From: Candidatus Tetragenococcus pullicola
Lineage (GTDB): Bacteria; Bacillota; Bacilli; Lactobacillales; Enterococcaceae
Direction of reading: 5' to 3'
Assembly (NCBI GenBank): GCA_019115705.1
Contig: DXDB01000136.1
Span: forward strand, 1 to 35,589
Length of the DNA: 35,589 bases
The position numbers were made by a program, and so were the translations under genes. This document shows, piece after piece, positions 2,082-8,941 of the stretch. How positions within the stretch are numbered: the stretch's first letter is position 1; each line of letters starts with the position of its first letter. The notes under the pieces are model-generated. The model did not search any database and was not told the origin of the DNA. It saw only the letters and a list, made by a program, of their open reading frames with translations.

Positions 2082-3419
2082 TCAGGAAAGTTCATTTTCA
2101 GTAAATTTAATATGGGCACTGATTCGTTTCATTACTTTGATTTCTAAGCTTTCTTGTCTTTGTTTGGACTTGCGTAAAGGTGGGTGTTTTTTAAAAAGTG
2201 GAAGATTCATTAGGAGAAAGAGTAACAGAACCGTCACGCCACCTGCAAAACCGCTATTGTATAAGTTGATGCCATTATGTGTCAAATTGAGTAGTTTTGA
2301 TACAAAGGGGAATAAAGTTCCTGATAAAAAGCCCCAAGTATTTCCGTAGTGATGGCAAAAGGGTGCCATGGTACTCACGAAAAAAAGAGCAATCAAGCCA
2401 CTTTCAGATGCCAGGCCGCCTAGAAAAAATTCATAAGAAAAAGCAACGCCGAGTGCTGGAAATAGAAAGTGAGAAAACCGATAATGATAAGCACTGAATC
2501 CGGTGAAAATTAAGATGGATCCTGCTAAGGGACCGGTTAGTGGTTCTTTAAGGAGATAAACAACTACTAAACCAATCAGGCCATAAATAGAAAATTTAAA
2601 GGTTTGTAAAATTTCTCTTAGCGATTGAGAAATTTTATTTTCTTCTTTTAAGATAAGGGTCATCTTTTTAAATTGGACAAAATGGTGGTTTAAAAAGAGA
2701 AAACCATAATAAATCAGTAAAATGGTAAAGAATAAAAAGAACAATAGGAACAATTCTTGGGAATGTTGTGGCGTTGTTGATAGGATATCTACGTCTATTT
2801 TTAAAATTTTGGTAATGAAAAAATTGACACCTAGGCTGACGATTCCTGCGACAAATCCCATGGTATAAAGGTTTAGTCCAAAGGTTAAATGAAGGGTTTT
2901 TTTGAAGATAGGAATCATAATAAAGCCCAGGATCACACCTAGTAAAAGGGCCATTGCTTTTATCCACAGACGATCTGAAGAAAAATAGACAATACTGACA
3001 GCCGGTGCTAAAGCGGTACCTAATAACCCACTGGAAAGATGCTTTTGTGACGTTTTATCAGATACTTTTATATAGAGGAAGAGCCCTAAAAAAATGGGGG
3101 CTGAATTAAATAGATTTTTTCCCCAGAAAGAATAACCAGCTAAAAGCATTAAATGTAAAAACGAACTTGGGGCAAAGTTATAATCATATTTTTTTAAAAT
3201 TTTCAGGCTGAGTAAGGTCATTAAGCCACTGTTAAGTAAAGCGGCCCCGACACCTCCAATGGAAACATAGTCTGTGACAAGATTGCCAGGTGATTGAATG
3301 ATTCGTATCATGCCGGATAAAATTTCAGACGGAGAGTCAAAAATGAAAGCTGTTATAATAAATAAAATTGCAATCAAGCGGGTGAATCGAAAAATATTAT
3401 TGGATGTTCGATGAGCCAT
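2082..3419 (-). CDS. DUF1576 family polytopic membrane protein
   Basis: This 445-residue protein consists almost entirely of hydrophobic segments, roughly ten to twelve transmembrane helices, with a short positively charged C-terminal tail. Gly-rich segments such as GGVGAALLNSG and NLYNSGFAGG are repeated-looking elements typical of the uncharacterised DUF1576 family, which I recognise by overall pattern only. Its substrate and function are unknown; a transporter-like role is inferred from topology alone. The start follows AAAGGAG, and a good promoter (TTGCAT-N17-TACAAT) lies just upstream. It is transcribed divergently from the RNF-like cluster across a 242-bp shared region, so co-regulation is possible. 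Confidence 0.75.
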   Translation of the reverse strand: MAHRTSNNIFRFTRLIAILFIITAFIFDSPSEILSGMIRIIQSPGNLVTDYVSIGGVGAALLNSGLMTLLSLKILKKYDYNFAPSSFLHLMLLAGYSFWGKNLFNSAPIFLGLFLYIKVSDKTSQKHLSSGLLGTALAPAVSIVYFSSDRLWIKAMALLLGVILGFIMIPIFKKTLHLTFGLNLYTMGFVAGIVSLGVNFFITKILKIDVDILSTTPQHSQELFLLFFLFFTILLIYYGFLFLNHHFVQFKKMTLILKEENKISQSLREILQTFKFSIYGLIGLVVVYLLKEPLTGPLAGSILIFTGFSAYHYRFSHFLFPALGVAFSYEFFLGGLASESGLIALFFVSTMAPFCHHYGNTWGFLSGTLFPFVSKLLNLTHNGINLYNSGFAGGVTVLLLFLLMNLPLFKKHPPLRKSKQRQESLEIKVMKRISAHIKFTENELS

Positions 3420-3661: not shown

Positions 3662-5008
3662 ATGGTAAACAAATTGATTGGTGGCATCTCCCTAAGTCCC
3701 CCATTACAAGCATTAAAGAAGAAGTTAACGATTGAACAAGAACATGTTTTGAGCTACGAACCCACAATGGTATTTATTCCTCTTGTCCAACACATCGGTA
3801 CGCCAGCACATCCAACTGTAAAAACTGGCGAAATTGTAAAAAAAGGACAAATTATTGGCCGAGAAGATGGTTTTATTTCGGCTCCTATTCATGCAAGTGT
3901 TTCTGGAAAGGTCGTGGACATCACGGATTGGCCGGATCAAAACAACCAAGAAGTAATGACAGTCATTATCGAAAACGACTTTAAACAAACCAGTGTACTG
4001 CCTACTGATTTTCATTGGCAAGAAGCCACAACTCAAGAAATCCTTCCCAAAATTCAACAAGCAGGGATTGTTGGAAAAGGTGGGGCTGCTTTTCCAACCC
4101 ACGTAAAATTTTCTTTAGATGAAAAGAAACAAGAAAAAATTGATCGCTTAATTATCAATGGTGCTGAATGTGAACCGTTCTTAAGAAGCGATGCCTTATT
4201 GATGACTGAACAAGCAGAGCAAATTATCCAAGGGGCACTCATCGCAAGAAAGCTACTTGGAGATCCAGATATTTTTATCGGAATCGAAGAAGACAAGCCA
4301 AAATCGATTGCGGCGATGAAAAAAGCCAGCAGTTCCTATCCATTTATTACTGTTTATTCTTTACCAGCCGTTTATCCTACCGGTGGAGAAAAGCAACTTA
4401 TCGCCATTTTAACCCAAAGAGAAGTTCCTCTAGGGAAATTACCGGCAGATGTTGGTGTTGTCGTATTAAATGTAGCGACCAGTGCTGCGATTGCTAACGC
4501 GGTGTGCCATGACCAACCGTTGATTGAGCGTTACACCACGGTCACAGGCGATGTAAAAGAACCGAAAATAGTAAAAAATCCTATTGGCACTCTTTCAGGT
4601 GAACTGATTGATTTTGCCGGTGGTTTTGAAGGAACACCAGCCAAAGTTATTTTAGGTGGGCCTATGATGGGAAAAACGATCGATACCTTACGAGTGCCCA
4701 TCACAAAAAATAGCAATGGCATTGTTGTTTTCAACCAAAAAAATGTACCGATTTTCACTGAAAACCCCTGTATTCGCTGTAATAAATGCGTCGAAGCTTG
4801 TCCGATGCGACTCATGCCAGCAAGCATTGATCAATATTTCCGAAATGGTGATTTTGATAAATGCGAAGAGCTTTTAGCGGATGCTTGTATCAATTGCGGT
4901 GCTTGTACCTTTGTTTGTCCGGCGCGCCGAGATTTAGCAGCAACGATTACTCAGGCCAAACAAAAGGTAATTACACTGAAAAGGGAGGCGGTCGCAAATG
5001 GCAAATGA
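3662..5008 (+). CDS. rnfC: RnfC-like NADH-oxidising subunit of an RNF-type electron transport complex
   Basis: This 448-residue protein is the right size for a short RnfC lacking the long C-terminal repeats seen in some Proteobacteria. The N-terminal barrel-like domain is followed by the NADH/FMN-binding Rossmann-type region with GKGGAAFPTHVKF (about residues 139-151) and NGAECEPF. Near the C-terminus are two 4Fe-4S motifs, CIRCNKCVEACP and CINCGACTFVCP. In known RNF complexes RnfC is the cytoplasmic peripheral subunit that exchanges electrons with NAD(H). It is first in a tight three-gene cluster and overlaps the next gene by 11 nt. The ATG follows AAAGGAGG. The usual partner RnfB, the ferredoxin-side subunit, is not in the window. 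Confidence 0.88.
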   Translation: MVNKLIGGISLSPPLQALKKKLTIEQEHVLSYEPTMVFIPLVQHIGTPAHPTVKTGEIVKKGQIIGREDGFISAPIHASVSGKVVDITDWPDQNNQEVMTVIIENDFKQTSVLPTDFHWQEATTQEILPKIQQAGIVGKGGAAFPTHVKFSLDEKKQEKIDRLIINGAECEPFLRSDALLMTEQAEQIIQGALIARKLLGDPDIFIGIEEDKPKSIAAMKKASSSYPFITVYSLPAVYPTGGEKQLIAILTQREVPLGKLPADVGVVVLNVATSAAIANAVCHDQPLIERYTTVTGDVKEPKIVKNPIGTLSGELIDFAGGFEGTPAKVILGGPMMGKTIDTLRVPITKNSNGIVVFNQKNVPIFTENPCIRCNKCVEACPMRLMPASIDQYFRNGDFDKCEELLADACINCGACTFVCPARRDLAATITQAKQKVITLKREAVANGK

Positions 5009-6071
5009 TTATAAAAAACCAGCAAGTGAAAAAATCTTTCAACAAGCTAAAACTGCTCACTCGATTGAAGCCAACCCACATATTAGACACGATAATACAA
5101 CCAAAAAGATCATGGTGACCGTCTTACTTTCTTTAGTACCAGCTGTCCTTTTTTCAGGCTATCTCTTTGGTTTCACCGTGTATGTCCGTTATTTGACAGC
5201 AATTTTGACCGCACTTATTTGTGAATATGTTTGGTTCAAAATTATTAAACGACCTTATCAGCTTGACTATAGTGTGATTGTCACAGCAGTGTTATTAACG
5301 ATGAGCCTGCCACCTTCTGCTCCGTGGTATTTTCCTGTGATTGCTACGAGTTTTGCTATTATTGTCATCAAAGAATTTTTCGGCGGATTAGGTTACAATT
5401 TTTTAAATCCAGCCTTAAGTGGCCGCTCTCTTTTGGTCGGATTATTTTATAATCAAATGTTTCTAGTCAGCTGGCCAGATCCACCGTTTAATAAAATCGC
5501 ACCGGATGTCGTCGCGGCCGCTACCGCAAATGATGCCATATCTGGAGCGACACCACTAGATATCATGCGGTCTGGCACAAGTTTAACCACGGCAGAATTA
5601 AGGGATTCTTTCTTTGGTGTGATTGGAGGTAGAATTGGGGAGACCAGTGCTTTGCTCTTAATTCTTGGCGGTCTTTTCTTGATCTACAAAAAAATTATTT
5701 CACCAAGAATTCCATTAATCATTATCGGCACGGTTGCTTTATTTGCCTTCATCCTGGGACCAGATGGCTTGTTTACAGGCTCGTTAACAAACGTGCTAGG
5801 GCATGTAATCAGTGGGGGCTTATTGCTAGGGGCTTTTTATATGGCCACGGATTATGCCAGCACGCCAGCGACCAAAATGGGAGAAAACATCTTTGCCTTA
5901 GGAGTTGGTTTACTGATTGTCTTGTTCCGTTTCTTCGGCATTACCAATGAAGGGGTTAGCTATGCCATTTTGATCATGAACTGCTTGACACCAACCATTG
6001 ATCGACTTTTACGTTTACGTGTTGTTGGTGAACCAGGAGCTAATTTTACAGATATAAAAATCAATCACTGA
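4998..6071 (+). CDS. rnfD: RnfD-like membrane subunit with covalent-FMN site
   Basis: A 357-residue polytopic membrane protein of the RnfD/NqrB family. Hallmarks include GGLGYNFLNPALSGR (about residues 129-143) and DAISGATPLD (about 179-188). In the latter, Thr185 sits in the Dxx(S/T)GAT context that the flavin transferase ApbE modifies with FMN in this family. No apbE is in the window, so the enzyme would have to be encoded elsewhere. The start overlaps the end of rnfC, with GGGAGG just upstream, which suggests translational coupling. In complete complexes RnfD passes electrons to RnfG, which also carries FMN; no RnfG homologue is seen here. Confidence 0.88.
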   Translation: MANDYKKPASEKIFQQAKTAHSIEANPHIRHDNTTKKIMVTVLLSLVPAVLFSGYLFGFTVYVRYLTAILTALICEYVWFKIIKRPYQLDYSVIVTAVLLTMSLPPSAPWYFPVIATSFAIIVIKEFFGGLGYNFLNPALSGRSLLVGLFYNQMFLVSWPDPPFNKIAPDVVAAATANDAISGATPLDIMRSGTSLTTAELRDSFFGVIGGRIGETSALLLILGGLFLIYKKIISPRIPLIIIGTVALFAFILGPDGLFTGSLTNVLGHVISGGLLLGAFYMATDYASTPATKMGENIFALGVGLLIVLFRFFGITNEGVSYAILIMNCLTPTIDRLLRLRVVGEPGANFTDIKINH

Positions 6072-6084
6072 GGAGGAATGAACC

Positions 6085-6654
6085 ATGATGATTGCCAACC
6101 GATTAGTGTTTTTTATCGCTACTTTAGTCACTTTTTATGCCTGCAACTCGTATCCATCGACCATTAAAAAAAAGCAACCCTTAGTTATCAAACGGGTCGC
6201 CTATATGAGCTTGCTTATTGGGATCGATTATGTTTTAAGTGGTTTAATTTTTTCCTGGTTGAGAAATAACGGGGGACACTATGGGAATCAAGTTGTCACA
6301 GATTTAGTAAGTGTTGCCATTATTTCGCTACTGGTTACTTGTCTGAGCTTCTTTGCGCCTGGCAATAAAATCTATTTAACCAATGAACTTAAAAAAAATA
6401 TGGTCTTTATCAGCTTGCTTCTGTCTTTAGCAACCTTCAGCCTCTTTTCAACTGAAGCCTTTATCAAAGAATTACTCGTTTTTTCTGGGATGTATGTTGT
6501 CTTTACGATTTGTTTTGCAGGTATAAAAGACCGAATGCAAATCGCTCCAATTCCCAACTTTATCAAAGGCTTGCCGTTAGATCTACTGACGTTATTCTTG
6601 ATTCTTTTGAGTTTTTCATTTTTAAATGGCGTATTTTTCGATCAATTATTTTAA
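6085..6654 (+). CDS. Divergent RnfA/RnfE-type membrane protein
   Basis: This 189-residue protein has about six hydrophobic segments. Its C-terminal third (KDRMQIAPIPNFIKGLPLDL) aligns by eye with the conserved end of RnfA/RnfE/NqrD/NqrE proteins, and its length is right. Cys20 in FYAC corresponds to the first conserved cysteine of RnfA (the GLCPF region). The second family cysteine, in the TNCAVLG region, appears to be replaced by Ser-Leu-Ala. In canonical complexes paired RnfA and RnfE jointly hold a 2Fe-2S cluster in the membrane, whereas here only one copy is encoded. It is the third gene of the cluster, 13 nt after rnfD, with its own GAGGAGG. Assignment as an RnfA/E relative is fairly secure; the electron-transfer role is inferred. 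Confidence 0.65.
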   Translation: MMIANRLVFFIATLVTFYACNSYPSTIKKKQPLVIKRVAYMSLLIGIDYVLSGLIFSWLRNNGGHYGNQVVTDLVSVAIISLLVTCLSFFAPGNKIYLTNELKKNMVFISLLLSLATFSLFSTEAFIKELLVFSGMYVVFTICFAGIKDRMQIAPIPNFIKGLPLDLLTLFLILLSFSFLNGVFFDQLF

Positions 6655-6686
6655 AAAAAGACATTCTATCGTTAGAAGAATCAAAG

Positions 6687-6745
6687 AGAACCGCCACTTG
6701 GCTAAAGAGTTTAGAATCTTTTGGCTAAACGGCGGTTCTTTTTTT
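6687..6745 (+). terminator. Terminator of the RNF-like cluster
   Basis: AGAACCGCC and GGCGGTTCT form a 9-bp outer stem enclosing a long loop that itself contains TTGGCTAAA and TTGGCTAAAC as a direct repeat. A T8 run follows. Confidence 0.75.
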
Positions 6746-6827
6746 AAACTGAAAAATAAGTTTCCTTGAAGAAGAAATGACTATAAAATGGCTAATCACT
6801 CGTACACCTCGAATAAATTAGAGATTC

Positions 6828-7175
6828 TTAGTGGAAGAATCGGGTCAAGTTTAGTTGAAATGATTGATCTTCATACGTCATTTCTACATGGTCAAGGGCC
6901 ATTCCTAATAACCGATAGTCCTGAGCGTTGAGCGTTTCTTTGCCACTACCAAGCAATTCATCGTAGTACCCTTCGATGGACGTATCTCGCGGTGTATTTA
7001 AGAGATCAAGAAATTCATTTATATTCGCTGGTAGTTTCTTACTAATTCCCTGTAACTGCAGAGATAGTTGTGTTTCTTCGTAGGAAATATCTAATTGGAC
7101 GGAGGTTATATCATTTTCCAAACAATAAAACAAGAGGGCATTGACAATGTGTCGCGTACGTTTTTTTTCATTCAT
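6828..7175 (-). CDS. Unknown small cytoplasmic protein (115 aa)
   Basis: I do not recognise this protein. It is acidic overall with a basic start (MNEKKRTRH), has no signal peptide or transmembrane segment, and shows an alternating beta-strand pattern (VQLDISYEETQLSLQLQGI) followed by helical stretches. AAAGGAG precedes the ATG at normal spacing, and codon use resembles neighbouring genes, so it is probably real. It is transcribed alone. Upstream, GGTCAGT occurs twice as a direct repeat 16 bp apart (7198 and 7214), a possible operator. It converges on the RNF-like cluster terminator, with no obvious functional link. Confidence 0.65.
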   Translation of the reverse strand: MNEKKRTRHIVNALLFYCLENDITSVQLDISYEETQLSLQLQGISKKLPANINEFLDLLNTPRDTSIEGYYDELLGSGKETLNAQDYRLLGMALDHVEMTYEDQSFQLNLTRFFH

Positions 7176-7822
7176 TGAAGGACTCCTTTTTTTGATAGGT
7201 CAGTCTAAAGTGCGGTCAGTTGTTAATGGTGTATTTTTCTAAAGTATTTGGTTTTTCTTTCACCAAAGAATAGCATAGTCATTAGAATCTATCAAGTGAA
7301 AACATGATCAAAAACAAGTAAGTAACTATTCATGCATTCATGGTTGAATCAGAGGCTTTACTTTGCGATTGGCTTGTTTCAATCCTTTTGTGGTATCGCT
7401 AGGACCCTATTCGTTTTTCGCGTTTGAGAATGTAGGCGACGTTCTGGGCATTTGTTTCATCGAATAATGTTCACGAGTAACGCCGTGGCCAAAGAAATCA
7501 AAAAGAAACGTCCACGAATGCAACCGTGGCCAAAAGAATCGAAAAGCAACGGCCACGGATAGAACCGTGGTCAAAAGAATTGAAAAGCAACGTCCACGGA
7601 TAGAACCGTGGCCAAAAAAAATGAAAAGAAATGTCCACGGATTGAACGGTGGCCAAAAGAAATCCCAATTCAAGAACGGCTACTTGGCCATGCGAAAAGG
7701 AATGAACAAGGAATCTATTTTTTCCCTGAATTTCTACAAATCGTTCCTATGAATCAAGGGTTTTTAAGAATTTTCATGGCGAAAAAGAAAAAGATTGTGT
7801 ATGATGGGACTAGGTGAAAAAA
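7176..7822. other. 647-bp divergent intergenic region holding repeat array 1
   Basis: The stretch lies between two divergently transcribed genes. Its left part (7176-7468) carries GGTCAGT direct repeats and an inverted repeat, TTTGGT/ACCAAA, near 7247-7267, but no convincing gene. The middle holds the 41-bp tandem array described separately. The right part (7693-7822) must contain the promoter of the glycosylase gene; no -35/-10 pair stood out. The ORF-track frames at 7407-7817 are products of the stop-poor repeat and are not considered genes. Confidence 0.6.
7469..7692 (+). repeat. 41-bp tandem repeat array 1 (type A, ending in a type B unit)
   Basis: Four full units of exactly 41 bp start at 7469, 7510, 7551 and 7592. 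A fifth, partial unit begins at 7633. Each contains G(T/G)CCACG, then 12 nt between the GTCCA and TGGCCA blocks, then an A/G-rich tail such as AAAGAATTGAAAAGCAAC. Units 3 and 4 contain a perfect CCACGG-ATAGAA-CCGTGG hairpin; the others keep 4-5 bp. The array then passes into CAAGAACGGCTACTTGGCCA (7671-7690), which is the type B sequence found at 31363-31653, placed 35 rather than 41 bp after the previous TGGCCA. No coding potential is likely because 41 is not a multiple of three. Confidence 0.9.
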
Positions 7823-8452
7823 ATGAGAGAAACAAAGCAATTTTTTGAAACAAAAACAACAGAAGAGATCGCTTCTTTTCTTGTGGGAATGTATCTCGAA
7901 TATGAAACGTCTGCTGGAAAATTAGGAGGGTATATAGTTGACTGTGAAGCTTATTTAGGTCCTGATGACAAAGCCGCTCATAGTTATGGAATGCGCGATA
8001 CACCAAGACTTCAGGCGATGTATCAAGAACCAGGCACCATTTATCTTTACACGATGCATACCCATTTGATTTTGAATATGATTACCCAACCAGTTGGCAT
8101 ACCTCAAGGAGTGATGATTCGCGGGCTAGAACCAGTCGAAGGCATTCAAGCAATGGAAGAAAATCGGAGCAAGTTTGGCGTTGAATTATCTAACGGGCCT
8201 GGCAAATTAGTTGCTGCGTTAGGAATTACTCCTGATCTTTATGGCCAATCTATTTTCACAAGTGCTTTACATTTAGTGCCAGAAAAGAAACGAACACCCA
8301 AAAAAATCGAAAGACTACCAAGAATTGGCATCCCCAATAAAGGAATTTGGACAGACAAGCCACTACGTTTTGTAGCCAGTGGCAATCCTTATATAACGAA
8401 AATTAGAAAAAAAGATATTGACTCTGACTTTGGTTGGAAAAGCTTAGAATAG
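7823..8452 (+). CDS. 3-methyladenine DNA glycosylase, AAG/MPG family
   Basis: This 209-residue protein belongs to the alkyladenine glycosylase family, which excises alkylated purines in base-excision repair. VDCEAYLGPDDKAAHSYG contains the catalytic Glu (about residue 42) and the EAY and AAHS landmarks. RGLEPVEG and LSNGPGKL are further family signatures. The region usually reading YxxYGxHxxxN is shortened and changed to YTMHTHLILN, so the usual base-stacking Tyr is absent there. I chose the ATG at 7823 because AGGTGA precedes it; the ORF track begins at GTG 7814. Ten nt separate it from the next gene, so glycosylase, DUF3013 and prmA probably form one operon. Confidence 0.85.
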   Translation: MRETKQFFETKTTEEIASFLVGMYLEYETSAGKLGGYIVDCEAYLGPDDKAAHSYGMRDTPRLQAMYQEPGTIYLYTMHTHLILNMITQPVGIPQGVMIRGLEPVEGIQAMEENRSKFGVELSNGPGKLVAALGITPDLYGQSIFTSALHLVPEKKRTPKKIERLPRIGIPNKGIWTDKPLRFVASGNPYITKIRKKDIDSDFGWKSLE

Positions 8453-8461
8453 GAGACTAAA

Positions 8462-8941
8462 ATGGCAAAAGAAACCATGCTTACGTATTTAGATGCCCAA
8501 CTTTCAAAGAATTTAACGGACTATGAAGTAGCCATTGATTGGGATACGAAAAATCATACCATTGAATTGATCATTCGATTGTGGGCTGAAAATAAGGATC
8601 AGTTATTACTCGACGACTTTGCTGGCATCGAATCTGAAGAAGAAGTCATTGAATTTGAAGACGGCATTTTACTTTATGATCCCAAGAAGTCGCAGTTTGA
8701 TCCAGATGATTATTTAGCGACACTGGCTTTTGAAGGCAAAAAAGGAATGAAAGCCGAACAACTAGCAGGTCTAGTGGATTATTTAAAAGAAGTATTAGAT
8801 GACGGTCAAAGCGACTTGCTTGATTTTTTGGATTTAGATAATGAAGAGGCTGTGTTCGAATTACATTTTGATCAAAAACGTTTGGAAGAATACATTTTAA
8901 AAAATGCCAACCCACGATATATTCCTTACCCAAGTTACTAA
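8462..8941 (+). CDS. DUF3013 family protein
   Basis: This is a 159-residue, strongly acidic soluble protein without a signal peptide or membrane segment. Several D/E-rich helices (GIESEEEVIEFEDG, FLDLDNEEAVFEL) and the C-terminal NPRYIPYPSY are visible. By overall appearance and its position directly upstream of prmA, it matches the uncharacterised DUF3013 family of Lactobacillales. I infer the family name rather than prove it, and the function is unknown. A GGAGA ribosome site lies 8-9 nt before the ATG. Its tight spacing with both neighbours supports co-transcription and possibly a translation-related role, but that is guilt by association only. Confidence 0.7.
   Translation: MAKETMLTYLDAQLSKNLTDYEVAIDWDTKNHTIELIIRLWAENKDQLLLDDFAGIESEEEVIEFEDGILLYDPKKSQFDPDDYLATLAFEGKKGMKAEQLAGLVDYLKEVLDDGQSDLLDFLDLDNEEAVFELHFDQKRLEEYILKNANPRYIPYPSY

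Follow-up and report, generated by a model that had tools for sequence, protein, structure and literature searches.

Electron flow through the RNF complex (RnfABCDGE) has been inferred from cryo-EM structures and from mutants. In the A. woodii complex, the cofactors run from NAD to the FMN and 4Fe–4S centers of RnfC, the riboflavin and FMN of RnfD, the FMN of RnfG, the 2Fe–2S cluster held between RnfA and RnfE and finally RnfB, and electrons trace a U-shaped path from ferredoxin via RnfB to NAD (PMC11889175). N123 and D249 are the riboflavin ligands of A. woodii RnfD, the FMN of the same subunit opens to the periplasmic side, and the RnfA cysteines ligate the membrane [2Fe–2S] cluster together with RnfE (PMC11889175). 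A one-way NQR/RNF-like pair consists of an RnfD/NqrB protein fused to an NqrF-type NAD domain and an RnfG/NqrC-like FMN protein (PMC8238504, 2021; PMC10979944, 2024), and the RnfD threonine is not conserved in this pair (PMC8238504; PMC10979944). In the flavin-based extracellular electron transfer (EET) system of Listeria, EetB is the FAD-export S subunit (PMC9973259).

The window analyzed here, a stretch of 35,589 nucleotides from Candidatus Tetragenococcus pullicola, contains an operon of three genes in which the start of rnfD overlaps the end of rnfC and a third gene, denoted X, follows (the C-D-X trio). This unit probably serves to move electrons from NADH out to the cell exterior. Our preferred reading of the sequences, to which we assign a probability of about 0.58, is that RnfC, RnfD, and X form a “half RNF,” that is, the NADH arm without the ferredoxin arm, with electrons passing from NADH to the outside. 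The features on which this reading draws are as follows.

3662..5008, + strand: RnfC, NADH/FMN subunit with two 4Fe–4S sites, 448 aa (TIGR01945, 469 bits; 9eri_C, E 1e-109, residues 19-442)
4052..4495, + strand: Nuo51-type FMN/NADH-binding domain of RnfC, residues 131-278 (PF01512, 160.9 bits)
4769..4804, + strand: first 4Fe–4S motif of RnfC, CIRCNKCVEACP (kept in 20/20 trio RnfC)
4886..4921, + strand: second 4Fe–4S motif of RnfC, CINCGACTFVCP (kept in 20/20 trio RnfC)
4998..6071, + strand: RnfD, membrane flavin subunit, 357 aa (PF03116, 330 bits; TIGR01946, 273 bits; 9eri_D, E 1e-65)
5406..5408, + strand: RnfD Asn137, equivalent to N123, which binds riboflavin in A. woodii RnfD (25/25 aligned RnfD have Asn here)
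5541..5552, + strand: RnfD flavinylation motif SGAT, residues 182-185 ([ST]xAT in 20/20 trio RnfD)
5550-5552 (codon), + strand: RnfD Thr185 within SGAT, predicted FMN attachment site
5850..5852, + strand: RnfD Asp285, equivalent to D249, which binds riboflavin in A. woodii RnfD (25/25 aligned RnfD have Asp here)
6085..6654, + strand: X, six-helix membrane protein, 189 aa, divergent RnfA/NqrE homologue without the [2Fe–2S] cysteines (homology, cysteine columns, model)
6686..6745, + strand: intrinsic terminator at the operon end (−28 kcal/mol, z −5.66, followed by a T run)

The terminator with which the initial annotation had closed the cluster is real and strong; it was found downstream of X by folding, a pattern scan having missed it. 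The trio is flanked by genes for a DUF1576 membrane protein (2082-3419, − strand) and a 115-aa orphan (6828-7175, − strand), both of which have paralogues in the same genome (29% and 50% identity, respectively; locus L005, 11022-12534) that adjoin each other and lie within a few kb of Ndh2-PplA-FmnB-DmkA genes; this DUF1576–orphan pairing was seen beside none of the other trio loci. Upstream of the DUF1576 gene is a gene for an Mga/MafR-like regulator (397-1809, + strand; PF05043, 40 bits) that scores below the cut-off for the AcpB/EbpR/MafR subfamily. A 41-bp tandem repeat (7483-7664, 4.4 copies, 85% matches) sits between the orphan gene and a 3-methyladenine glycosylase gene.

RnfC, for which the TIGR01945 cut-off is 246 bits, harbors Complex1_51K and RnfC_N domains as well as both CxxCxxCxxxCP motifs, and aligns along its length with A. 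woodii RnfC. RnfD likewise scores far above its family cut-offs and aligns with its A. woodii counterpart such that T185 matches the FMN threonine; PF03116 is its only domain, with no fused PF00175 NAD domain. As judged from sequence, all of the cofactor features checked in RnfC and RnfD are thus retained, in keeping with the earlier reading of an intact NADH/FMN region, two 4Fe–4S motifs, and a flavinylation motif.

X has no meaningful match in Pfam or NCBIfam, even at E ≤10, and none to PF02508, and its designation as “RnfA-type” therefore cannot be read from domain libraries. A profile of 13 X sequences, when compared with a profile of 59 RnfA sequences by hhalign, aligns with 96.7% probability (E 3e-10) and matches nothing in RnfE; an identity of X as RnfE was rejected on this ground. 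Among PDB sequences, X matches only four with E <0.01, namely three RnfA proteins and an NqrE (9eri_A at 4e-5, 7zc6_A, 7xk3_E, and 8ahx_A), and an AlphaFold model of X (pLDDT 84) recovers RnfA 8ahx_A, NqrE 7xk3_E and 8a1v_E, and RnfA 9eri_A as its top folds in Foldseek, with probabilities of 0.99-1.00 and TM scores of 0.51-0.61 but E-values of only 0.07-0.22. Weaker matches to the X profile (E 1e-10 to 1e-3) occur in 134 of 398 other Bacillota genomes and are mostly of RnfA-frame length; in Enterococcaceae, each such match whose locus was read proved to be the RnfA of an RNF operon. The profile, PDB-sequence, and fold comparisons together rule out an unrelated membrane protein and establish X as a divergent RnfA/NqrE homologue, which retains the fold and the C-terminal motif of RnfA. 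A plasmid-borne origin of the gene was also considered and rejected, with no match in PLSDB.

What X does not retain is the metal site. The two cluster cysteines, present without exception in 59/59 RnfA sequences, have both been lost from X. Across 20 X proteins, Cys reaches at most 6/20 in any alignment column, and three of these proteins carry one Cys in total, so a homodimer could not provide four Cys ligands. With the [2Fe–2S] ligands gone, X is most readily understood as a structural relic of RnfA, and the term “RnfA-type” stands as a statement of homology and falls in its redox sense. These residues bear directly on a second reading, in which the trio pumps ions (Na+/H+) by a new route, with X, perhaps as a homodimer, replacing RnfA/E, or else runs in reverse and passes outside electrons to NAD+. 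X is under purifying selection (see below) and so does something, and its retained fold and C-terminal motif are consistent with such a role; however, the proposed RNF pump cycles via the A/E [2Fe–2S] cluster (PMC11889175), for which an X homodimer falls short of four ligands, and we consider a pumping or reversed trio improbable.

The other subunits are missing well beyond the window. Genome-wide searches of the source assembly (2.6 Mb, 98.2% complete, 211 contigs) returned no Rnf-Nqr family (PF02508) protein, hence no RnfA or RnfE over the family model, no RnfB FeS domain (PF04060), and no RnfG as such, FMN_bind being confined to a PplA-like lipoprotein with two such stretches; controls (E. 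coli, T. maritima, and others) behaved as expected. The initial annotation, which described only RnfC, RnfD, and one RnfA-type protein and reported RnfB, RnfG, and a second RnfA/E as absent, is therefore borne out in the window and genome-wide, and a standard complex completed by subunits encoded elsewhere is ruled out by these domain searches. The companion search for apbE found two copies, one of them of the lipoprotein type and located in an EET locus. A subtler variant holds that remote subunits unseen by RNF models, for example an RnfB substitute, complete a ferredoxin-linked complex. Distant homologues can indeed escape Pfam, as X itself illustrates, but the sole candidate subunit has lost the A/E cluster connecting RnfB with RnfG, and the genome lacks an RnfB FeS domain, which makes this variant very improbable. 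With RnfB, RnfE, and RnfG absent and X lacking the RnfA cysteines, exactly the second half of the RNF path is gone, and a module that would transfer electrons from NADH to an outer flavin without ferredoxin fits both the kept and the lost parts. The interpretation offered by the initial annotation, a plausible module of this kind, is thus supported, with the two amendments on X and on the acceptor given in this text.

The same unit is present in 21 of the 106 Enterococcaceae species surveyed, among them, by named record, E. casseliflavus, E. innesii, and E. nangangensis, and is therefore not a deletion in one assembly. A first contig scan with X as query found no relative, and it was RnfD as query that located them. 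The order in the trio loci read is C-D-X, with no adjoining G/E/A/B and no RnfG/NqrC-like FMN partner. Fifteen of the 21 genomes harbor no PF02508 protein over the cut-off (no RnfA/E), and the remaining six (G043, G401, G402, G406, G408, and G427) additionally encode a complete CDGEAB operon at another site, in which case subunits may be shared with the complete RNF. The distribution is patchy, as eight other species of the window's genus in the survey are without X, and no convincing match to X was found outside Enterococcaceae among the sampled genomes of the order or phylum.

Phylogenetic analysis places the trio RnfD proteins in one clade (support 100/100) and, in a tree of their own, the trio RnfC proteins likewise (94/88), each apart from complete enterococcal RNF; on the basis of these separate clades, and of the six genomes that hold both systems, a local loss from an enterococcal RNF operon is rejected. 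Values of dN/dS (NG86) in measurable pairs span 0.04-0.10 in RnfC, 0.02-0.10 in RnfD, and 0.05-0.13 in X, with dS high or saturated in several pairs. All three genes are under purifying selection, and C-D-X is a conserved three-gene module. These data largely refute the idea that the trio is merely what is left, without function, of a complete RNF operon in decay, to which we give almost no credence: the missing subunits and an internal stop in X of G225 and G416 are what decay would leave, but the occurrence in 21 species, the deep monophyly, the low dN/dS of three genes, and the lack of G/E/A/B remnants at the loci read all oppose it, and in G416 RnfD and a neighboring ATPase gene are also split, which suggests assembly errors.

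Two Planctomycetaceae MAGs (loci L045 and L060) carry an RnfC-RnfD pair that, like the trio, has no adjacent G/E/A/B and that groups as sister of the trio in the RnfD tree (99/94) as well as in the RnfC tree (100/100); unlike the trio, no X adjoins this pair. The grouping is tentative because the planctomycete branch is long. The pair does not represent the sole RNF genes of these genomes, which encode RnfA/E and a separate, fuller E-A-B-C-D cluster on other contigs. The trio may belong to an older RnfCD-only lineage that is present also in Planctomycetota beside complete RNF.

Where the electrons would go is suggested by the genomic context. In the source genome, the lipoprotein-type ApbE (FmnB) is encoded beside Ndh2, PplA, and DmkA on one contig (C48) and EetA-EetB-DmkB on another (C23), so that the trio coexists with a flavin-based EET set. 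The outside acceptor, which had been called unknown, is in this genome not wholly so, given the encoded PplA-like FMN lipoprotein. In G225, a divergent apbE adjoins eetA-eetB-rnfC-rnfD-X (L027). This genome encodes no FMN_bind protein, hence no PplA, and no EET-type Ndh2, the nearest relative being a 32% generic match with in-frame stops. With the trio adjoining apbE and eetA-eetB and FMN_bind proteins absent, RnfD is likely the ApbE flavinylation target in G225; by the same token, PplA cannot be the universal acceptor. The X gene of G225 (about 8806-9369 of L027) contains an in-frame TGA at codon 15 and is otherwise intact, which may mean that G225 can do without X or that the TGA is a base error. 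In most trio genomes, no acceptor gene adjoins the trio. Genes for small lipoproteins and S-component-like proteins close to the trio in L025, L026, L040, and L042 were considered as candidates for EetA/EetB and rejected, with no match to the EetA/EetB seeds in L025, L026, and L040. Elsewhere in the source genome (L006, G000:C44), an FMN reductase + PAS_10 protein that ends in DAVSGAS, a flavinylation-like motif, is encoded near an ApbE with no obvious signal sequence at its N terminus (5858-7147 and 7760-8716), and is possibly a cytosolic flavinylated protein.

Gene content, cofactor residues, the homology of X and the loss of its cysteines, conservation, and selection are shown by the present analysis, and complex formation, electron direction, acceptor, and flavinylation are inferred. 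The observations are compatible with a mechanism in which RnfC would oxidize NADH at its FMN and pass the electrons through its two 4Fe–4S clusters to RnfD, where they would reach first the riboflavin and next the covalent FMN. Because the latter faces outside, electrons would leave the cell at this point and would not return via RnfG, an RnfA/E cluster, RnfB, and ferredoxin; X, as an RnfA descendant without the cluster, would be retained as a structural partner of RnfD. ApbE/FmnB would attach FMN to RnfD using FAD exported by EetB, and the likely acceptor in the source genome would be PplA, the FMN lipoprotein of enterococcal and listerial EET, or else free flavin or Fe(III). Several findings run against this scheme: the source genome also harbors a complete Ndh2-PplA EET set, which leaves no obvious need for a further NADH entry; most trio loci have no acceptor gene beside them; G225 lacks PplA and has an interrupted X frame; and six trio genomes hold a complete RNF. 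The source genome encodes the quinone genes DmkA/DmkB, which accords with a different assignment, namely that RnfC-RnfD-X is a membrane NADH:demethylmenaquinone reductase that, like Na+-NQR, delivers electrons to quinone at its RnfD-type subunit, any outward transfer being a side effect. NQR, which reduces quinone, is derived from RNF, and its NqrB subunit, the RnfD counterpart, binds quinone (PMC11889175). A riboflavin-to-quinone path could do without the outward-facing FMN threonine found in 20/20 trio RnfD; moreover, RnfC retains its cofactors, unlike NqrA, and the co-location with apbE and an FAD exporter in G225 points outward. We therefore regard a quinone reductase as unlikely, if worth keeping in mind, and favor the NADH arm operating alone. 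From such a half RNF one would expect an outside flavin to be reduced at the expense of NADH, with neither ferredoxin nor pumping, and a natural complex of RnfC, RnfD, and a cluster-free RnfA would test which RNF arm does what; the trio is present in a cultured species, E. casseliflavus. A bolder formulation, which we put forward tentatively and at slightly below even odds, is that the trio represents a third RNF/NQR-derived machine, in which the NADH arm on a cysteine-free RnfA fossil scaffold would serve as a one-way conduit from NADH to the outside, with no ferredoxin, quinone, or ion pumping.

A literature search on RnfC/RnfD in Enterococcus, incomplete RNF, and Rnf with EET found no description of the trio, although it covered open-licence papers only and is weak evidence. 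Compared with the RNF complexes of A. woodii and C. tetanomorphum, the trio shares full-length homology and cofactor residues in RnfC and RnfD, and X is homologous to RnfA; it differs in the absence of RnfB, RnfE, and RnfG and in an RnfA-like subunit without [2Fe–2S] cysteines. The RnfA/RnfE pair with its four-cysteine [2Fe–2S] cluster, a feature of RNF, has no equivalent here, and no ferredoxin link is expected. Na+-NQR shares the NqrB/RnfD and NqrE/RnfA folds, whereas the trio lacks NqrF, NqrC, and NqrD and its RnfC holds the redox cofactors that NqrA lost. Gram-positive flavin EET (Ndh2-PplA-FmnB-DmkA/B-EetA/B) probably has the same destination, extracytosolic FMN or Fe(III), along with FAD export and ApbE maturation, but in the trio NADH would enter through RnfC-RnfD and not through Ndh2 and quinone; the trio would be a second NADH entry to EET in enterococci, independent of both. 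The nearest published relative is the two-subunit NQR/RNF-like system, with which the trio shares the proposed one-way transfer from NAD(P)H to an extracytosolic flavin through an RnfD/NqrB membrane domain. It is differently built: the NADH module of the trio is RnfC, not an NqrF domain, and its operon has no RnfG-like partner, keeps the RnfD threonine, and adds an RnfA remnant.
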